Shown: positions 1,965-35,419 of the stretch, in pieces
How positions within the stretch are numbered: position 1 is the first letter of the stretch
Layout of the letters: every line of letters starts with the position of its first letter
Origin: an uncultured Carboxylicivirga sp.
GTDB lineage: Bacteria; Bacteroidota; Bacteroidia; Bacteroidales; Marinilabiliaceae
Reading direction: 5' to 3'
Length of the DNA: 64,000 nucleotides
NCBI GenBank assembly: GCA_947491945.1
Contig: CANLLN010000018.1
Span: forward strand, 1-64,000
Translations under genes and position numbers: made by a program
Notes under the pieces: model-generated
The model's database searches: none
Told to the model about the DNA's origin: nothing
Seen by the model: only the letters and a program-made list of their open reading frames with translations

Positions 1965-2290
1965 GACAAGCTAAAGTTATCTACAAAAACGAGGAGGCAG
2001 GTCTGCTTACTCAATTAGATAGTGGAGCATTTGTGTTTCGCTACAGTGATGCATGGTTTAATGCCACAGATAAACCACCTATTAGTCTTACATTACCTAA
2101 AAATCAGCAGGAATACCAGTCTGAATATTTGTTCCCGTTTTTTTACAATATGTTGCCGGAAGGGACGAATAAACAGGTTGTTTGTCATGCTATGCGTATT
2201 GATAAAGACGATCATTTTGGTTTATTGCTAACTACAGCAAGTTATGACACTATTGGCGCAGTTAGAATTATAAAAACGGATAATGTATGA
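1961..2290 (+). CDS. hipS: HipS-like protein: stand-alone HipA N-terminal subdomain
   Basis: A 109-residue protein equivalent to the N-terminal subdomain of HipA, encoded separately. It has the features of that domain: a first strand AKVIYKNEEAGLL, then FVFRYSDAWF, PISLTLP, and the LFPFFYNMLPEG stretch. In E. coli O127 HipBST the corresponding small protein (HipS) neutralises the HipT kinase, while HipB contributes repression; the gene order here (B, S, T) is the same. ATGA overlaps with both neighbours imply coupled translation and fixed stoichiometry. Bacteroidota genomes often split HipA this way, so antitoxin activity is inferred from architecture, not shown. No second intact copy is present near the duplicated hipT at 28530. 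Confidence 0.82.
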   Translation: MRQAKVIYKNEEAGLLTQLDSGAFVFRYSDAWFNATDKPPISLTLPKNQQEYQSEYLFPFFYNMLPEGTNKQVVCHAMRIDKDDHFGLLLTTASYDTIGAVRIIKTDNV

Positions 2291-3273
2291 GTTTACCTGA
2301 TATACACTATTGCCCCGGAACATTAAAAGAAGGAAATAGAACCTATTCAGCAACAGCTCTAAAGCGTGTATTCAAGGGGAAGAAGGTAAGTCATATTCTT
2401 CCTTACGAGTCGCCGGCAACGAACGCGTTAACTGATGAACTGTTTAAGGATAACCGAAAAAGGATGTCTATTTCCGGTGTACAAGAAAAATTCTCTGTTT
2501 TGCTTGACAAAAATAAATTGCGTTTAATTACCGAAGGCGAACACGGGCAATACATTCTTAAACCTCAACCAAGTGCAGGTAAGCATCCTGAAATGATGCC
2601 AGCCAACGAGCATTTAACGATGCAAATAGCACGGCAGGTTTTTAATATCGAAACGGCCGAAAATGCACTTATTTTTTTTCGTAATGGCGAACCGGCCTAT
2701 ATTACTAAGCGATTTGATGTTCAAGATGACAACACGAAGGTGGCACAGGAAGATTTTGCTGCTTTAGCGCTAAGAACGCCTCAAACACACGGTGCAAACT
2801 ATAAATACCTGGGTAACTATTATGATTTATTTGTGATAATGAAAAAGTTTGTTCCTGCCTATAATATTGAAGCTCCCAAGCTTTTGAAGCTTATCCTGTT
2901 TAATTATTTATTTTCTAACGGCGATGCACATTTTAAAAACTTTTCACTCATACAAACTGACTTTGGAGATTATAAATTGAGTCCGGCTTACGACTTGTTG
3001 AATAGCCGCATTCATATTGAAGATAAGGATTTTGCACTGGATGATGGTTTGTTACCTCCAGCTCTGGCAAAGGGAAAAGTACATGAACAGTTTTATCAAC
3101 TTGGTGAGTTGGCAGGCATCAGTATCAAACTGATTGATAATATTTTTGCTCTGCTCAGTTCCGGTAAGGATGATGTTTTAAGGTTAATTAGTCATTCTTA
3201 TCTTTCTGAAAAGTTGAAGCGTAACTACGAACAGGCCTATTTAACCCGCTTAAAAAAACTGAACAGGAAATAA
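2287..3273 (+). CDS. hipT: HipT-like serine/threonine kinase toxin (HipA core)
   Basis: A 328-residue HipA-family kinase lacking the N-terminal subdomain. The glycine-rich loop SISGVQEK (residues 61-68) carries the serines that HipA/HipT kinases autophosphorylate. The catalytic loop NGDAHFKN has D213 and N218, and the metal-binding segment is SPAYDLL (D236). YITKRFD near residue 140 forms part of the nucleotide site. HipA and HipT phosphorylate glutamyl- or tryptophanyl-tRNA synthetase in E. coli; the target here is unknown. It starts by ATGA overlap with hipS. A copy differing at six residues lies at 28554-29537. TTAG-rich repeats follow the stop. Confidence 0.85.
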   Translation: MSLPDIHYCPGTLKEGNRTYSATALKRVFKGKKVSHILPYESPATNALTDELFKDNRKRMSISGVQEKFSVLLDKNKLRLITEGEHGQYILKPQPSAGKHPEMMPANEHLTMQIARQVFNIETAENALIFFRNGEPAYITKRFDVQDDNTKVAQEDFAALALRTPQTHGANYKYLGNYYDLFVIMKKFVPAYNIEAPKLLKLILFNYLFSNGDAHFKNFSLIQTDFGDYKLSPAYDLLNSRIHIEDKDFALDDGLLPPALAKGKVHEQFYQLGELAGISIKLIDNIFALLSSGKDDVLRLISHSYLSEKLKRNYEQAYLTRLKKLNRK

Positions 3274-3584
3274 GGGGTAGCTCTTAGGTGTTAGGTTCTA
3301 GCTATTAGTGTCTATCAATTGAAATTCGTGTATTTTTTGGCAGAAAATATAAGCAAACTGCCAATAGTTTTGATACTAAAATTTCGATAATCAGTGCTTT
3401 TACGGCTCGTCTAGGTTAGGGGTTAGCTAGGAGATGCAATGAAAAAGTATCAAGGGTCAAGCGCCTGCGGCTAGTGGAGGATGGAAGCGCAATGAGTCCT
3501 TCGGGAAGCTCAGGGCATTGTACTCAGCAATCAAGCATTGATTTGGTTATGTGAGATTTATGATGTTTGGATGTAGGAGTGTGC
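3274..3584. other. Intergenic spacer after hipT with GC-rich repeat copy R2
   Basis: No gene. It contains the TTAG-rich tail shared with copy B (3280-3460) and one GC-rich dispersed repeat (3457-3517; core words gcgcctgcggctag, ggatggaagcgcaatgagt, ccttcggg, agctcaggg). The repeat begins exactly where similarity to copy B ends, suggesting it inserted in, or was lost from, only one of the two blocks. Confidence 0.6.
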
Positions 3585-4403
3585 TTAGTGATTTATAGAG
3601 GATGAAAAAAAGCGAAGGATAACATGTAAGCTTTGTTGTTGCCATAATTTATCAGTTGTTATTAAGTTATGCCCATGGGCAGGTACAATCCATAGGCTTG
3701 AATTATCAATGGCATGGTGCATATCAACAGCTTCAGCAACAGAGAATAGGGGGTCGCTGTCGCCCAGAATTATTAGTGTTTTGGCTGTTATGGTAGATAA
3801 ATAAGGGGGTGTGAAATTTATATCGTTATAGGTGTTGGAAAAGTTATTTAGTTGCTGGTATATTTTTCTGATTTGTTCATCCCCTCCAAGGTGTATGGAG
3901 CGGAGATATGATAAGTGGCTATCATTTAAATTATCAAATGTAAATGAGCTTAATACTTTTCTTGCCTGCTCTGAATAGTAGGACGATGTTCCAATTAGGA
4001 CCATATTTGAGATTCTATCCGGTTGTTGCGTTGCCATGTGTAAAAGAGTCAGGCCACCAGAACTGTAACCTATTGCATTGAATTTGTTAATATTCAACTT
4101 ATCGAGTAGGGCAAAGATATCAAGTGCTGACTCATTGTGTTTGAATTCATTAGTAGGATTGGTTGATTTACCATGTCCTCTCATGTCAGGGATGATTAAT
4201 TTGTATTTTAATGATAAGGAATCTAGCAGATTATACCAGATAGTATGATTTTGTGTGAAACCATGCAGTAACACTAATGGGTATCCATCGCCAAAAGTCT
4301 CATAATAGATACTAACTCCATTAACTTCGGCAGTTTGCTTTGTTTGGGCGGCAGTTGAAGTTAATGTGATTAAAAAAATGGAAATTAGCAGGGCGTTTTT
4401 CAT
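3585..4403 (-). CDS. Secreted alpha/beta-fold hydrolase (copy A)
   Basis: A 272-residue alpha/beta hydrolase with an N-terminal signal peptide (residues 1-19, ending STAAQ). The oxyanion-side motif is HGFTQ (about 48-52). The nucleophile elbow is GYSSGG (serine near residue 114), the acid lies in GDSDPLF, and the catalytic histidine in HGHNL, so the triad is complete. The substrate cannot be read from sequence; family members include esterases, lipases and epoxide or haloalkane hydrolases. It lies 8 nt downstream of the S10 peptidase on the same strand, so the two are probably cotranscribed. Its paralogue at 29731-30543 is clearly diverged although flanking blocks are almost identical. Confidence 0.85.
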   Translation of the reverse strand: MKNALLISIFLITLTSTAAQTKQTAEVNGVSIYYETFGDGYPLVLLHGFTQNHTIWYNLLDSLSLKYKLIIPDMRGHGKSTNPTNEFKHNESALDIFALLDKLNINKFNAIGYSSGGLTLLHMATQQPDRISNMVLIGTSSYYSEQARKVLSSFTFDNLNDSHLSYLRSIHLGGDEQIRKIYQQLNNFSNTYNDINFTPPYLSTITAKTLIILGDSDPLFSVAEAVDMHHAIDNSSLWIVPAHGHNLITTDKLWQQQSLHVILRFFSSSINH

Positions 4404-4411
4404 GACACAAA

Positions 4412-5907
4412 TTAATAAGATGACTTAATAAACTGGTTTAAATCTTCACTGAGCTTTTGGAGTTGAAGCTGGTCGATGTACATCATGTGACCGGCTTCGT
4501 AGTATTTAATGGTGACGTTGTTTTTAGTATTCTCTTCAAAATGGATATGGTCAAAACAATAGGTGGTTACAGAGAAGGGGGTGGCACCATCATAGTAACC
4601 TGCTGCTACAAATATCTTAAGAAAAGGATTCTTAATCAACGCTCTACTAATGTCTTCACCCAAGTAGATTGGCCGACCTTTAAATTTGCCTAGTTTCCAA
4701 CGATTAACTATAGAGCTGTTAAAGGTAATGTACTGACGATCATCCGGGTAGTTAAGATCTGTTTTTAGGTATTGGAAAAATGTGGATGAATATGAACCGT
4801 CCATAAATGTGGTACTTGGGTCATATATGGCATAATTAGACCAACTGTCAGTTGGATTAATCCGTCTTGTTAAACGGGAGTCGTACCGACCTATCATCAG
4901 ACCTTCCTTTTCAAGTAGTTTGCCATAGAACATTTTAGTGCTAATGCGCAACTTCTTGCTTTTTAGATATTCCACATCTAAACCTGTGAATTCAGAGAGG
5001 TTTAATGCTAGACTGTTCAACTCTGATTCTGATAGGTTATTTCCTTTTATTATTGCCAGAGCAAGTTCATTCTGGGCAAATGTCTCTGATTTTTTGATGG
5101 TTGAAAACAGGTCTGGCATTAAATCATCATTTAATTTATTATGGAACCAGGCCGTTGCCGTGTAAAATGGTAAGGTGGTCATATATGGTAGCTCATTACC
5201 CGGGGAGTCCCAGGTGAGTATATCATTTGTAAATGGAGAAATAAGCATGATACCATTGATATACAAGCCGTATTCGTTCTGCAAAAAGGATGTTACTCCA
5301 CAAGCTCTAAAGCCGCCATAGCTTTCTCCAATGATTAGTTTTGGAGAATTAAAGCGATTATTTTTAGATAGATATATCTAATGAATTCAGCAATGGATTG
5401 AATGTCATCGTCAATGCCATAGAATGTTTCTTCAGGTATTGTGTCTGCAGAAACACTAAATCCTGTCCCAACAGGGTCGATGAAGACTAAATCTGTATTT
5501 GGTAATACGGAGTAGATATTATCAACCAATTGATAAGGAGGTGGTAATAATTCTCCTTTTTCACCCATTTTGACTCTCTGAGGCCCCAGTATGCCAAGGT
5601 GTAACCAGACAGAGGAGGAACCTGGTCCACCATTAAATGAGAAAGTAATCGGACGAATAGAATCTGAGTTACCTAAGGTATAGGCCACGTAAAAGATGGA
5701 TGCTGTTGGGTTTTGTTTTTTATCTCTGAGCAGTATTGTGCCAGCCGTGGCGGTATAGCGGAGAGCTGTATTGTTTATTAATAGTTCGTGTTGTGTAGTA
5801 ACAGCTTCTTCTGTTAAATCTTTGGAGGTTTTTCCCTCTTGTGCTAATACGAGTGAAGTAAAGAGTGAAATAGTAATGACAATAGTTAACCTTTTAGCTG
5901 ATTTCAT
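4412..5907 (-). pseudogene. S10 serine carboxypeptidase (copy A), frameshifted
   Basis: Secreted serine carboxypeptidase of family S10 (carboxypeptidase C / cathepsin A type). The upstream frame carries a signal peptide ending LVLAQ and the oxyanion motif NGGPGSSS. The downstream frame carries the catalytic Asp region (AAGYYDGATPF) and His region (YEAGHMMY). The frames are joined by a 1-nt loss near 5371-5382; the nucleophile motif GESYGG (about 5285-5334) lies beyond the shift and is not read from the start codon. Copy B (30898-32394) is intact. The lesion sits exactly where the near-identical tract shared with copy B ends. Start 5907 (MKSAK) is preferred over the longer frame because it begins a normal signal peptide. 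Confidence 0.85.
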
Positions 5908-28529: not shown

Positions 28530-29537
28530 GTGGTCAACTTCAGCGTTTTTTCCAGTTTACCTGATATACACTATTGCCCCGGTACATTAAAAGAAGGAAA
28601 TAAAACCTATTCAGCAACAGCTCTAAAGCGTGTATTCAAGGGGAAGAAGGTAAGTCATATTCTTCCTTACGAGTCGCCGGCAACGAACGCGTTAACTGAT
28701 GAACTGTTTGCGGATAACCGAAAAAGGATGTCTATTTCCGGGGTACAAGAAAAATTCTCTGTTTTGCTGGATAAAAATAAATTGCGTTTAATTACCGAAG
28801 GCGAACAAGGGCAATACATTCTTAAACCTCAACCAAGTGCTGGTAAACATCCTGAAATGATGCCAGCCAACGAGCATTTAACGATGCAAATAGCAAGGCA
28901 GGTTTTTAATATCGAAACGGCCGAAAATGCGCTTATTTTTTTTCGTAACGGCGAACCGGCCTATATTACTAAGCGATTTGATGTTCAAGATGACAACACG
29001 AAGGTGGCACAGGAAGATTTTGCTGCTTTAGCGCTAAGAACGCCTCAAACACATGGCACAAACTATAAATACCTGGGTAACTATTATGATTTATTTGTGA
29101 TAATGAAAAAGTTTGTTCCTGCCTATAATATTGAAGCTCCCAAGCTTTTGAAGCTTATCCTGTTTAATTATTTATTTTCTAACGGCGATGCACATTTTAA
29201 AAACTTTTCACTCATACAAACTGACTTTGGAGATTATAAATTGAGTCCGGCTTACGATTTGTTGAATAGCCGCATTCACATTGAAGATAGGGATTTTGCA
29301 CTGGATGATGGTTTGTTACCTCCAGCTCTGGCAAAGGGAAAAGTGCATGAGCAGTTTTATCAACTTGGTGAGTTGGCAGGCATCAATATCAAACTGATTG
29401 ATAATATTTTTGCTCTGCTCAGTTCCGGGAAGGATGATGTTTTAAGGTTAATTAGTCACTCCTATCTGTCTGAAAAGTTGAAGCGTAACTACGAACAGGC
29501 CTATTTAACACGGTTAAAAAAACTGAACAGGAAATAA
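28530..29537 (+). pseudogene. hipT: Orphan hipT copy fused to the IS21 end, lacking its own start and hipB/hipS
   Basis: Identical to the HipT kinase at 2287 except at six residues, and retaining SISGVQEK, NGDAHFKN and SPAYDLL. Identity begins at serine 2 (28554); the original ATG and all of hipS and hipB are absent. The open frame continues upstream to a GTG at 28530 inside the IS21 terminal repeats, so a protein with about eight foreign N-terminal residues is possible if transcribed. All catalytic residues are intact, yet no cognate antitoxin lies here; the intact operon 26 kb away could neutralise it. Treated as a probable 5'-truncated gene; a functional orphan kinase is the alternative. 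Confidence 0.7.
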
Positions 29538-29730
29538 GGGGTAGCTCTTAGGTGTTAGGTTCTGGCTATTAGTGTCTATCAATTGAAATTCGTGTATTTT
29601 TTGGCAGAAAATATAAGCAAGCTGCCAATAGTGTTGATACTAAAATATTGATAATTAGTACTTTTGTGACTCGTCCAGGTTGGGGTTAGTTAGGAGATGC
29701 AATGAAAAAGTATCAAGGGTCAAGATTCGT

Positions 29731-30543
29731 CTAGTGCGGTTTATAGAAGAAGTTGTTAAGTATATTGATAAAAGGAGTATGCCACACCGGGCTAGCAGAG
29801 ATCAGGTCATGTCCGTAGTTAGGTGCGATCCATAAATATGCGTTAGGTATAGAGCGGTATAACTCAAGGGCTGTTTCAACCGGAAAAAGGATATCCCGGT
29901 CGCCTTGAATGATTAGCGTTTTAGTACGGATGGTTGAAAGCATCGGCGCAGTGAAATTTATGTCGTTGTAGGATTCGGAAAAGCCATTGAGTTGATGAAG
30001 AAGTTCCCTGACTTGCTTTTCCCCCCGTGGGTGTATTTTTAAGTAATAATCCCTTGTTGCTTTGTTAAGTGTTTCATAGGTATAATCCTTAAGAACATTA
30101 CGACTAGACTTGGGGAAGTAAGGCGCTGTGCCAATCAAAACCATGGCTTCCAGTCTGGAGGTATCCATAAGGGCCATGTGTAAAAGCGTGAGGCCTCCGG
30201 CACTATAGCCAATAGCTTTGAATTTATTAATATCAAGATGATCTAATAGGCTGTAGATGTCAATGGCGGATTGTTTACATGTGAATTTATGCGCCGGGTT
30301 GGTAGACTGTCCATGCCCTCGCAAATCAGGGATTATAAGTTGATAATGAGATGAAAGAGAATCAATCAGATGATACCAGTCAGCATGTGTTTGTGTAAAG
30401 CCATGCAAAAGAACAAGTGGGGATCCTTCTCCATAGCTCTCGTAATAAATATCCACGTCTTTTAAATGGACGATTTCGTTGGTTTGGCTACAACATAAAA
30501 TGACATTATAGATAAATAGAAAGAATACTATGTGAGTCTTCAT
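29731..30543 (-). CDS. Secreted alpha/beta-fold hydrolase (copy B)
   Basis: A 270-residue alpha/beta hydrolase, diverged paralogue of the gene at 3585. Signal peptide about 1-19 (ends CCSQ). Triad motifs are complete: HGFTQ, GYSAGG (nucleophile serine), GDRDILF (acid) and YGHDL (histidine). About half of its residues match copy A by eye, in contrast to the almost identical flanking blocks. That makes it an older paralogue, not a recent duplicate. It lies downstream of the S10 gene on the same strand with an esterase remnant between. Substrate unknown. Confidence 0.85.
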   Translation of the reverse strand: MKTHIVFFLFIYNVILCCSQTNEIVHLKDVDIYYESYGEGSPLVLLHGFTQTHADWYHLIDSLSSHYQLIIPDLRGHGQSTNPAHKFTCKQSAIDIYSLLDHLDINKFKAIGYSAGGLTLLHMALMDTSRLEAMVLIGTAPYFPKSSRNVLKDYTYETLNKATRDYYLKIHPRGEKQVRELLHQLNGFSESYNDINFTAPMLSTIRTKTLIIQGDRDILFPVETALELYRSIPNAYLWIAPNYGHDLISASPVWHTPFINILNNFFYKPH

Positions 30544-30555
30544 AAGATATTGATT

Positions 30556-30882
30556 TTAATGATTGAGTACGAATTTTATTCCTTTAGTTAATGCGGCCGG
30601 GAACATCGAGTAGTGGGTTTCATTTCCAATAATAGCTGTTTGGTAGACGAAGCCTGTATAGTTACGCTCCTCGATGATCTTATTAAAGTCATGCCATGGT
30701 TCCACCATTGTAAACTGCCTATTGAAAAAAATACAATACCAATTATCCTACGATTAGGATCAGAAAGTTTATATTCATTCTCAATAAAAGGCAGTAATTC
30801 TTATCTGCACATTGCTTTTTTGCCCAAAGCCGAAGGTGCAAAACAGGGTTATCACGAGGCATGCTAGAAGGGAAAGTTTCAT
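30556..30882 (-). pseudogene. Remnant of a third secreted esterase (internal deletion, frameshifts)
   Basis: On the minus strand an ATG at 30882 opens a good signal peptide (MKLSLLACLVITLFCTFGFGQ region) and about a dozen mature residues, then a stop. Further down, other frames read FIENEYKLSDPNRRIIG and then EERNYTGFVYQTAIIGNETHYSMFPAALTKGIKFVL. That tail resembles the C-terminus of Fes/IroE-like alpha/beta esterases (histidine in GNETHYS). The N- and C-terminal parts of one gene remain, with the middle lost and at least two frameshifts. It has no equivalent in copy A. Confidence 0.6.
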
Positions 30883-30897
30883 GGCTTGATAGAAAAA

Positions 30898-32394
30898 TTA
30901 ATAAGCGGATTTAATAAATTGGTTTAGATCTTCGCTCAACTTTTGTAACTGGGTTTGGTCATTGTATATCATGTGACCGGCTTCGTAGTATTTAATGGTG
31001 ACGTTGTCTTTAGTATTCTCTTCAAAATGGATATGGTCAAAACAATAGTTGGTTACAGAGAAGGGGGTGGCACCATCATAGTAACCTGCTGCTACAAATA
31101 TCTTAAGAAAAGGATTCTTAATCAACGCTCTACTAATGTCTTCACCCAAGTAGATTGGCCGACCTTTAAATTTGCCTAGTTTCCAACGATTAGCTATAGA
31201 GCTGTTAAAGGTAATGTACTGACGATCATCCGGGTAGTTAAGATCTGTTTTTAGGTATTGGAAAAATGTGGATGAATATGAACCGTCCATAAATGTGGTA
31301 CTTGGGTCATATATGGCATAATTAGACCAACTGTCAGTTGGATTAATCCGTCTTGTTAAACGGGAGTCGTACCGACCTATCATCAGACCTTCCTTTTCAA
31401 GTAGTTTGTCATAGAACATTTTAGTGCTAATGCGCAACTTCTTGCTTTTTAGATATTCCACATCTAAACCTGTGAATTCAGAGAGGTTTAATGCAAGACT
31501 GTTTAACTCTGATTCTGATAGGTTATTTCCTTTTATTATTGCCAGAGCAAGTTCATTATGGGCAAATGTCTCTGATTTTTTGATGGTTGAAAACAGGTCT
31601 GGCATTAAATCATCATTTAATTTATTATGGAACCAGGCCGTTGCCGTGTAAAATGGTAAGGTGGTCATATATGGTAGCTCATTACCCGGGGAGTCCCAGG
31701 TGAGTATATCATTTGTAAATGGAGAAATAAGCATGATACCATTGATATACAAGCCGTATTCGTTCTGCAAAAAGGATGTTACTCCACAAGCTCTAAAGCC
31801 GCCATAGCTTTCTCCAATGATTAGTTTTGGAGAATTAAAGCGATTATTTTTAGATAAGTATAGGCGAATGAATTCGGCAGTCGCCTGAATATCTTCATCA
31901 ATCCCATAGAAGAAGTCTTGAGAAGTTGGATCAAGAGCAATGCTAAAGCCAGTACCCACAGGATCGATGAAGACCAGGTCGGTATTTGGCAGCACCGAAT
32001 AGATGTTATCAATCAGATGATAAGGGGGAGGTGTTGATCGACCATTGTCACTCATTTTTACTCTTTTGGGACCAAGAATCCCCAGATTCAACCAAAATGA
32101 AGAAGAGCCAGGACCTCCGTTGAAAGAAAAGGTAACCGGCCGGTTAGTTATGTTATCATCTAAAGAATAAGCTACATAAAAGATAGAGGCTGCTGGCTTT
32201 TGGTCTTTATTCTTGAGGATGATGGTGCCAGCTGTTGCTGTGTAGTTGAGTGTAGAATTATTAATTACCAGTTTGTGTTTGGTTTTAACTGTTTGCTCCT
32301 TTAGCTCCAGACTCTTTTTTTCCTCTTGTGCTAATATAAATGAGAAGCAAAATGAAATTGTAAGAGCAAGTAATGTAGTGGTTATGGATTTCAT
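30898..32394 (-). CDS. Secreted S10 serine carboxypeptidase (copy B), intact
   Basis: A protein of about 498 residues of peptidase family S10, which removes C-terminal residues from peptides at acidic pH. Signal peptide 1-23 (ends FILAQ). Oxyanion motif NGGPGSSS (92-99), nucleophile motif IGESYGG (serine 196), Asp region AAGYYDGATPF and His region YEAGHMIY complete the triad. Start 32394 (MKSIT) gives a normal signal peptide; the frame is open 19 codons further upstream without a better start. The 3' two thirds are nearly identical to the frameshifted copy at 4412-5907, while the first 175 codons are much more diverged. Probably cotranscribed with the downstream hydrolase. Confidence 0.88.
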   Translation of the reverse strand: MKSITTTLLALTISFCFSFILAQEEKKSLELKEQTVKTKHKLVINNSTLNYTATAGTIILKNKDQKPAASIFYVAYSLDDNITNRPVTFSFNGGPGSSSFWLNLGILGPKRVKMSDNGRSTPPPYHLIDNIYSVLPNTDLVFIDPVGTGFSIALDPTSQDFFYGIDEDIQATAEFIRLYLSKNNRFNSPKLIIGESYGGFRACGVTSFLQNEYGLYINGIMLISPFTNDILTWDSPGNELPYMTTLPFYTATAWFHNKLNDDLMPDLFSTIKKSETFAHNELALAIIKGNNLSESELNSLALNLSEFTGLDVEYLKSKKLRISTKMFYDKLLEKEGLMIGRYDSRLTRRINPTDSWSNYAIYDPSTTFMDGSYSSTFFQYLKTDLNYPDDRQYITFNSSIANRWKLGKFKGRPIYLGEDISRALIKNPFLKIFVAAGYYDGATPFSVTNYCFDHIHFEENTKDNVTIKYYEAGHMIYNDQTQLQKLSEDLNQFIKSAY

Positions 32395-33503: not shown

Positions 33504-34567
33504 ATGAACGAATTAATTGTAACCCCTCAATCTAAGCTTCCTCCGGTATTTGCCAATATGAGTGCCAGCTATAAGGCTTATTGGTTTATTGGTATACTTG
33601 AATGCTTGGTTGAAGAAGGGTTGGAGGAGATTCCGATACGGCGTATTTGTGCGCGTATGCTGGTAAATGCCTGGTATCCGGTTCATTTTTTTAAGCTGCA
33701 TTTTGGGGGGCTCAGGATTTAATTAGTCAGCATAATGACTTTGTGAAGGAATATCGGGGATTAGCAGCTGATATTAGGAAGAACAATCTATTAGAGATAT
33801 TAACAGAAACAGCAGATAAAGAGATTGTTGAGAAGGTAATGCATTTTAGAAAGCATGTGCCCTTCCGCTTCTTATCGCCCTGGATCGGTTATAAGAGTGA
33901 TACTCAGGTAGAGAAAGATTCTCAGGATTATAAAAATGAAGCTCCCTATGCAATCTTTCGTGACCGTAATACCATTGTCATAAATTCTACATGGATATCC
34001 TTTTTGAAATCGAATTATAAGCTTTTGATTGATTATGGTTATTGGTGTTTATCGCAATATGTTCAGTCAAAAAATCCAGGGGTACCTGATATTGCGGGTA
34101 AGTTAATAAAACCGGCCGTAAGAGGAAGTTTAGTGGCGCAGCGTATGTACTGGCAAATTGTTTTTGACCAAGTCGAACAGTTACAGTGCATTTATACCCA
34201 TAAACAGCTTACGCCCCAAAAGTTTGACGTTGAACATTACATACCATGGAGTTTTACTGCTCATAACTTGATTTGGAATCTGGTACCAGCTGATTCAAGT
34301 ATCAATTCATCAAAAAATAATAAGTTGCCGAATAAAAGTTTTTTGAAGGATTTTGTTGATTTACAAAGAATGGGTTTGCAAATTGTATTCGATAAAAGTC
34401 CGAAGAACAAGTTATTAGATGACTTTGCTGTATTTGGTGTTTCTGTCAAAGAATTGCTTAATTTACCCTCACATCGGTTCTTCGAGCTTTATGACAATCA
34501 AATATCACCCCAGTTGCAGTTGGCTCATCAACTGGGATTTGCTTATTGGAACTACCCAAATCATTAA
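33504..34567 (+). pseudogene. HNH endonuclease-domain protein, frameshifted at a G-run
   Basis: Two frames form one gene. The first (33504-33722) begins MNELIVTP and ends VHFFKLHFG. The second continues AQDLISQHNDFVKEYRG to 34567. The shift lies at six G residues (33704-33709); seven or four G would restore the frame. The C-terminal half has an HNH-type nuclease motif: CIYTHKQL, FDVEHYIPW (first His) and HNLIWNLVPADSSINSSKNN (Asn/His region). The first 170 residues are helical and unassigned. It lies 3 nt before the methyltransferase-HIT gene, so the two form an operon. The G-run could be a read error, a decay mutation or a phase-variable switch. Confidence 0.75.
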
Positions 34568-34570
34568 AGT

Positions 34571-35419
34571 ATGACAAAGAATCATTCCCACCTGACGGCC
34601 AAAGAACGCGATAAAATTTCTTTTCCAACAAATTGGCTCTTGCGCAATGGCTTACTTCGCGGACGCATATTGGATTTTGGTTGCGGCTTAGGGGCTGATA
34701 CGAAGGGACTGCAAGCGGCAGGGTTTGATGTGGAAGCTTATGATCCGTATTACAAGCCTAAGCTACTTGATGGTTATTTTGATACCATTATTTGTCAGTA
34801 TGTGATAAATGTGCTTGAAGAGAAATATCAGGAGCAAATAATTCTGGAGATGAGCTCCAAGCTGGCGCCCGGCGGCAGTGTATTTATCACAGTAAGACGT
34901 GATGTTAGATATCAAGGCTATCGAACGCATAAAATCCATCAGAAAACCACTTATCAACGTAATGTTCTTCTTAATTTCCCATCAGTATATGTGAATGATT
35001 TTTGTGAAATATACCAGATCAAGCGCAAAGTAGATCATCCTGTTAAATCAGCTTGTATTTTCTGCAGGCCATCTAATAAACTAAAGTATATCGCCGAATC
35101 ATCAAACGCATTTGCGGTGTATGATGGCTATCCGGTAAGCAAAGGGCATGCCTTGGTAATACCCAAGATGCATGAAGCAGATTATTTTAGCTTATCCAGC
35201 TCTTTGCAGCATGAGCTTGTTGATGTTGTGGCTTTTGTCAAGAATTATCTGAGGCATAAATATATGCCTGATGGTTTTAATGTGGGCATTAATGTGGGGC
35301 AGGCAGCCGGCCAGACGGTTTTTCATGTACATATTCATATTATACCCCGTTATAAGGGCGATACACCTAATCCCAAAGGCGGTGTACGACACGTTATAAA
35401 AGGTAAAGGGTTTTATTAG
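34571..35419 (+). CDS. Class I SAM-dependent methyltransferase fused to a HIT domain
   Basis: A 282-residue two-domain protein. Residues about 10-150 form a Rossmann methyltransferase domain with SAM-binding motif ILDFGCGLGADT (33-44) and the DTIICQYVINVLEE segment after strand 4. Residues about 160-282 form a HIT (histidine triad) domain with zinc-type CIFC (162-165), NVGINVGQAAGQTV and the triad HVHIHI (H252, H254, H256). HIT proteins hydrolyse or transfer nucleotide-phosphate bonds. The two activities fused suggest successive steps on a nucleic acid or nucleotide. It lies 3 nt after an HNH nuclease gene, and the pair is flanked by repeat arrays in a mobile region. The biological role is unknown to me. 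Confidence 0.87.
   Translation: MTKNHSHLTAKERDKISFPTNWLLRNGLLRGRILDFGCGLGADTKGLQAAGFDVEAYDPYYKPKLLDGYFDTIICQYVINVLEEKYQEQIILEMSSKLAPGGSVFITVRRDVRYQGYRTHKIHQKTTYQRNVLLNFPSVYVNDFCEIYQIKRKVDHPVKSACIFCRPSNKLKYIAESSNAFAVYDGYPVSKGHALVIPKMHEADYFSLSSSLQHELVDVVAFVKNYLRHKYMPDGFNVGINVGQAAGQTVFHVHIHIIPRYKGDTPNPKGGVRHVIKGKGFY

Follow-up and report, generated by a model that had tools for sequence, protein, structure and literature searches.

The locus lies on contig C18, one of the 216 contigs of a draft genome, within a window (the whole stretch of DNA analysed) of 64,000 nucleotides. It contains two genes, both on the forward strand: one for an HNH nuclease and, 3 nucleotides downstream, one for a protein in which a class I methyltransferase is joined to a HIT domain (below, 'the fusion'). 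The nuclease gene occupies two frames. Its N-terminal piece (33504-33722) contains two conserved motifs, S/T-Y-K and WYP, and aligns with the first approximately 70 residues of intact relatives (loci L004, L005, L013, L014, L043, L060 and L069). The remainder (33743-34567) is 37 to 44% identical to the intact relatives. A run of six G residues (33705-33710) lies at or beside the frame break. Placed end to end, the two pieces align with single unbroken proteins of approximately 350 amino acids in relatives, which confirms that this sequence carries a frameshift. It may represent a sequencing error, decay or switching. A genome search identified the pair as a single copy. The frameshift in its nuclease gene has probably left it non-functional, either dead or silenced. 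The interest of the pair rests in its family, not in the copy in the window.

The second piece of the nuclease includes an HNH_4 (Cas9-type) domain (34187-34330, residues 149-196 of that piece; Pfam HNH_4, E = 2.2e-10, 40.8 bits against a cut-off of 22) with invariant H, N and K residues, which places it in the HNH_4 family. A structure model of the nuclease (pLDDT 93.4) shows a helical part of approximately 220 residues followed by the HNH domain. With this model Foldseek returns essentially matches to the HNH domain alone, the best being the HNH domains of Cas9, and no solved relatives of the helical part. The nuclease motif with its conserved His, Asn and Lys is common to Cas9 and the pair's nuclease but the latter has a different helical N-terminal domain, no RuvC and no guide RNA. 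An Rfam search of the locus found no RNA.

The fusion gene (34571-35419) encodes 282 amino acids. It includes a SAM-binding motif, ILDFGCG (34667-34687), in a region matching Pfam Methyltransf_23 (E = 8e-11), and a HIT domain (35078-35356; Pfam HIT, E = 1.2e-20, 74.4 bits against a cut-off of 21.5) with the triad H252-x-H254-x-H256 (HVHIHI). A C162xxC165 motif sits just before the HIT domain. The structure model (pLDDT 85.1) matches HIT hydrolases (structures 3imi and 1y23) and, together with the invariant HxHxH triad, assigns the protein to the HIT superfamily. It has the HIT fold and complete catalytic triad of the HIT hydrolases (Fhit, HINT, Ap4A phosphorylase) but differs from them in its attached methyltransferase and its nuclease partner. 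The gene pair, its spacing, both fusion motifs and the frameshift had all been recognised in a preliminary description of this DNA and are borne out here.

That description also placed the pair in a mobile, repeat-flanked island. The neighbouring genes agree with a mobile setting but the repeats bracket another stretch. Direct repeats of approximately 4 kb (about 2290-5660 and 28554-32147; copies approximately 26.3-26.5 kb apart, with 70 to 97% identity in matched stretches) enclose 26 kb to the left of the pair, which lies approximately 1 kb outside the second copy and adjoins mobile-element-like genes. To its right are an HTH_17 protein, an ATPase (45% identical to an ATPase in the L095 flank) and an IrrE-like peptidase, neighbours that are consistent with a mobile element. 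The repeats themselves contain a HipA-like kinase, an alpha/beta hydrolase and an S10 carboxypeptidase, with a Sus-like operon region and an IS21-type element between them.

Conservation and genomic setting of the pair

The fusion occurs in 15 of 296 sampled genomes of the phylum, including that of the window (E below 1e-67), and the 14 other carriers show 42 to 53% identity. A scan of GTDB genomes, from which the best 80 loci were listed, gave loci nearly all in Bacteroidota, with two in Chloroflexota. The fusion is full length in these 80 loci, an HNH nuclease gene lies directly upstream on the same strand in all 80, and the two genes in most cases overlap, by 10 bp. Since the fusion is found in 14 other sampled genomes and the HNH gene precedes it in 80/80 listed loci, the pair is real and conserved far beyond chance; loss of the fusion from relatives, which would have counted against the initial idea of a functional module, is not what is seen. 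The active-site residues are intact across the family. An alignment of 41 diverse fusions shows that the SAM motif (D35, G37, G39, G41 and D43), the three HIT histidines and the CxxC are invariant, and the nuclease alignment retains the HNH His, Asn and Lys as well as a Tyr-Lys near the N-terminus.

The neighbourhood of the pair is rich in defence genes. When 125 neighbour proteins from diverse loci were compared with PADLOC, they matched 359 models (E of 1e-6 or better), including Abi, Wadjet, Cas1, PbeA, MADS and candidate systems. As a control, 124 genes were taken from related genomes, in 18 regions chosen arbitrarily; they gave 11 matches, mostly MotB-like or TPR. PADLOC holds many models per family, and 359 against 11 is therefore a count of models rather than of genes, but the contrast is clear. 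The defence setting, proposed at the outset and to be checked by just such an enrichment, is strongly supported, and the pair is not one that lies mostly outside mobile or defence islands in a housekeeping pathway.

The methyltransferase is not always present. The nearest single-domain HIT relatives, which have no methyltransferase, adjoin an HNH gene (L016-L018 and L021). Such pairs of a HIT-only and an HNH gene are carried by a Hymenobacter plasmid and, with the gene order reversed, by an Aromatoleum plasmid; on a Persicobacter plasmid the neighbour of the HIT-only gene is an HNH_4 protein. In L019 (925-1920) HNH (PF01844) and HIT are combined in one chain of 331 amino acids, again with no methyltransferase. 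Since HIT-only pairs and this one-chain form exist, HNH plus HIT forms the core, with the methyltransferase as an extra part that is frequent in Bacteroidota. Among the phage matches listed, none is the full fusion; they are HIT-only, with one weak HNH match, and the IMG/VR matches listed are methyltransferase-only. In three further loci (L015, L160 and L162) a type B-like HNH protein (see below for nuclease types) is preceded in the same chain by a class I methyltransferase of another kind, with no methyltransferase-HIT partner in view in L160 and L162.

Exchange of the nuclease gene

Three kinds of HNH protein occupy the nuclease position: type A (that of the window), type B, which is only 22 to 26% identical to type A in protein, and a third kind, seen in L008 and L090, made up of sulphur-binding-domain (SBD) HNH relatives of the enzymes that restrict phosphorothioated DNA. 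The last two match the SBD-HNH endonuclease family NF045808 (ScoMcrA-like; E = 3.5e-25 and 9.1e-30, 88.7 and 103.7 bits, both below the curated cut-off of 180 bits), with a further match to structure 8h0l (E = 2.3e-7). Window-type HNH proteins give no NF045808 match and fall outside this family. The nucleases of 93 of 95 fusions belong to the other HNH types, with an N-terminal domain that is at best a distant relative.

On well supported branches of the fusion tree the nuclease type changes at least 8 times for type A and at least 10 times for type B. Two pairs of Algoriphagus loci show the exchange directly. L068 (A. marincola HL-49) and L076 (A. formosus) are 94.6% identical in nucleotide sequence until 17 nucleotides before the nuclease start and 94.9% identical from the nuclease end through the fusion, while their nucleases are 22% identical in protein. 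For L089 and G111 (L132) the flanks are 96.7% and 93.4% identical in nucleotide sequence and the nucleases 26% in protein. Across such in-place exchanges the fusion is 93 to 94% identical in protein. Clearly, the nuclease has been swapped in place repeatedly and the fusion kept. A swap beside a near-constant partner amounts to a clean experiment, done by nature, that bears on which of the two halves determines specificity.

This has consequences for the parallel with restriction-modification drawn in the preliminary description. In a classical system the methyltransferase would mark host DNA and the HNH enzyme would cut unmarked DNA. A methyltransferase does adjoin a nuclease here, in defence islands, and the nuclease family is also found with another DNA-modification system (see below). 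In-place exchange nevertheless argues against this reading, since protection matched to the cut sequence should make a swap lethal or useless. The shared specificity and joint inheritance of type II systems are not seen: the fusion is nearly unchanged where the nuclease is replaced, over at least 8 to 10 type changes (specificity is judged here from sequence exchange). In addition, the catalytic motif expected of a DNA base methyltransferase ([DNS]PP[FYW] or PC) is absent from the fusion and from its alignment (the strand-4 region is FDTIICQYVINVL), and HIT-only pairs do without a methyltransferase altogether. We consider classical restriction-modification very unlikely, and the parallel is not supported in that sense.

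Association with DNA phosphorothioation genes

Homologues of SspB, SspC or SspD lie within 10 kb of the pair in 9 of the best 80 GTDB loci listed (L028, L029, L033, L038, L042, L048, L060, L061 and L095); SspB is equated with DUF4007 in PMC12839542. PADLOC analysis of representatives identifies SspB (2e-90) and SspC (E = 0) in L042 and SspD (1e-86 to 1e-88) in L033 and L048. Ssp genes and the pair form contiguous operons in L033, L131, L038 and L028/L048, and in G267 SspB is followed by an ATPase, the HNH gene and the fusion in that order, with overlaps or gaps of a few bases. Since SspB is present in 10 of 198 genomes of the phylum, chance alone would be expected to bring the genes together in well under one of these loci. 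Defence genes tend to cluster in general, which adds to the closeness, and the link may in part be of this kind; the shared operons are the stronger evidence. The preliminary description had neither this link nor the exchange of the nuclease.

In several loci the pair is flanked by, or forms an operon with, homologues of SspB, SspC and SspD, known from Ssp systems (SspABCD with SspE) and type 4 BREX, but most copies are in genomes with no Ssp/Dnd genes, the nuclease is of the HNH_4 type and the fusion is no known Ssp component. SspE, like the HNH protein in the role proposed below, acts as a nuclease effector in a phosphorothioate system (PMC9646914 and PMC13251355). A genome-wide search shows that DUF4007 and DndC are absent from the genome of the window, which thus carries no Ssp/Dnd system by these markers. 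Among 59 fusion-carrying genomes, 52 have no DUF4007 match over the cut-off and none has a DndC match over the cut-off. A requirement for phosphorothioation supplied in trans was considered and rejected, most of the 59 carriers having neither DUF4007 nor DndC. Because most copies, including that of the window, are without Ssp/Dnd genes, the pair does not require phosphorothioation, and its link to it is either ancestral or optional.

The N-terminal part of the fusion (residues 6-98) resembles TIGR04096, a DNA phosphorothioation-associated putative methyltransferase (E = 1.6e-15), and is 28 to 39% identical over approximately 100 residues to a member on a Synechocystis plasmid. It is not itself a member: the match reaches 56.9 bits against a cut-off of 150 and concerns the N-terminal part only. 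The two also differ in length (478 in TIGR04096, 282 in the fusion), and no HIT domain is noted in TIGR04096.

These associations raise the question of type IV, phosphorothioate-dependent restriction, in which the nuclease N-terminus would be a divergent SBD reading phosphorothioate DNA and the fusion would process sulphur-bearing nucleotides. The two swapped-in SBD-HNH nucleases (NF045808; 8h0l) point in this direction. The S/T-Y-K motif also falls in register with the H-K of the SBD sulphur pocket (described in PMC6224610). When the N-terminal domain was compared with SBDs using hhalign and 200 column shuffles, 2 of the 200 type A shuffles scored as high as the real comparison, which is suggestive, and 10 of 200 did so for type B, which is not convincing; the statistics are weak. 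The HIT enzyme HINT1 converts dGMPS to dGMP and H2S (PMC8775712), which makes a thio-nucleotide substrate conceivable. However, hhalign gives the profile match a probability below 2%, which is weak, Foldseek of the whole nuclease model found no SBD, and hosts with Ssp loci would have phosphorothioate in their own DNA. Such type IV restriction is in our opinion distinctly unlikely. We give still less credence to an extension of it, a portable module that would sense and erase phosphorothioate using a very divergent SBD at the nuclease N-terminus, HIT de-thiolation and methyl capping on nucleotides or DNA ends, with the reader-nuclease swapped like a cartridge.

HNH_4 nucleases with an N-terminal Tyr-Lys and no fusion partner were observed in or beside Ssp/Dnd genes in L022, L023, L025, L120, L121, L122, L148 and L155. 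These relatives are carried by cyanobacterial and Hymenobacter plasmids and by two sampled genomes, near cysteine desulfurase, SspD or DndC. They may constitute a restriction component of phosphorothioate systems that has so far gone undescribed.

The fusion-less nucleases also bear on a form of toxin-antitoxin or self-control, in which the HNH protein would be toxic to its host, the fusion would disarm it through modification at a conserved site, the invariant Tyr-Lys of S/T-Y-K being one candidate, and infection would free the nuclease. The tight two-gene operon with overlapping genes would suit such a system, as would the invariant Y-K in all of the diverse nucleases served by the one partner; HIT enzymes cleave nucleotidyl-lysine and related bonds. 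Set against this, relatives exist beside phosphorothioate genes with no fusion to disarm them, and a nuclease-first order is uncommon for toxin-antitoxin pairs. We regard this explanation as unlikely.

Proposed role of the pair

The reading that we prefer, with a probability of roughly 0.6, is a two-gene anti-invader module composed of an HNH effector and a constant, nuclease-agnostic fusion that processes nucleotides. The HNH protein would be the DNA-cutting effector, with its Cas9-type HNH domain behind the helical domain. We infer that the fusion would chemically alter a nucleotide, a nucleic-acid end or the backbone, its first domain by methyl transfer and its second by using the HIT histidine to hydrolyse or transfer a nucleotidyl group, and would so govern or complement the nuclease. 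Alternatively, its target may be a feature common to all three kinds of nuclease. The module would have arisen in Ssp/Dnd phosphorothioate islands, into which it still plugs, but it mostly travels alone.

A full-text search of open-licence papers, which is no proof of novelty, found no case of HIT together with HNH in defence and no description of the methyltransferase and HIT combination. In two phosphorothioate/BREX surveys (PMC10853773 and PMC12839542), HIT proteins were not found under the terms looked for. The pair is apparently an undescribed anti-virus gene pair. If this is correct, it would add a two-gene defence module, widespread in Bacteroidota and absent as a unit from PADLOC and Pfam, and would tie a HIT enzyme and the orphan methyltransferase family TIGR04096 to phosphorothioate defence, with defined partners to test.

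Shortened SspB/DUF4007 genes were also observed before the pair in four loci (L048:5295-5741, L061:7279-7614, L095:2981-3400 and L165:811-1146). They cover about the initial third of the domain and lie directly upstream in two of the four loci. They may be remnants that recur, or else a short form that still functions.
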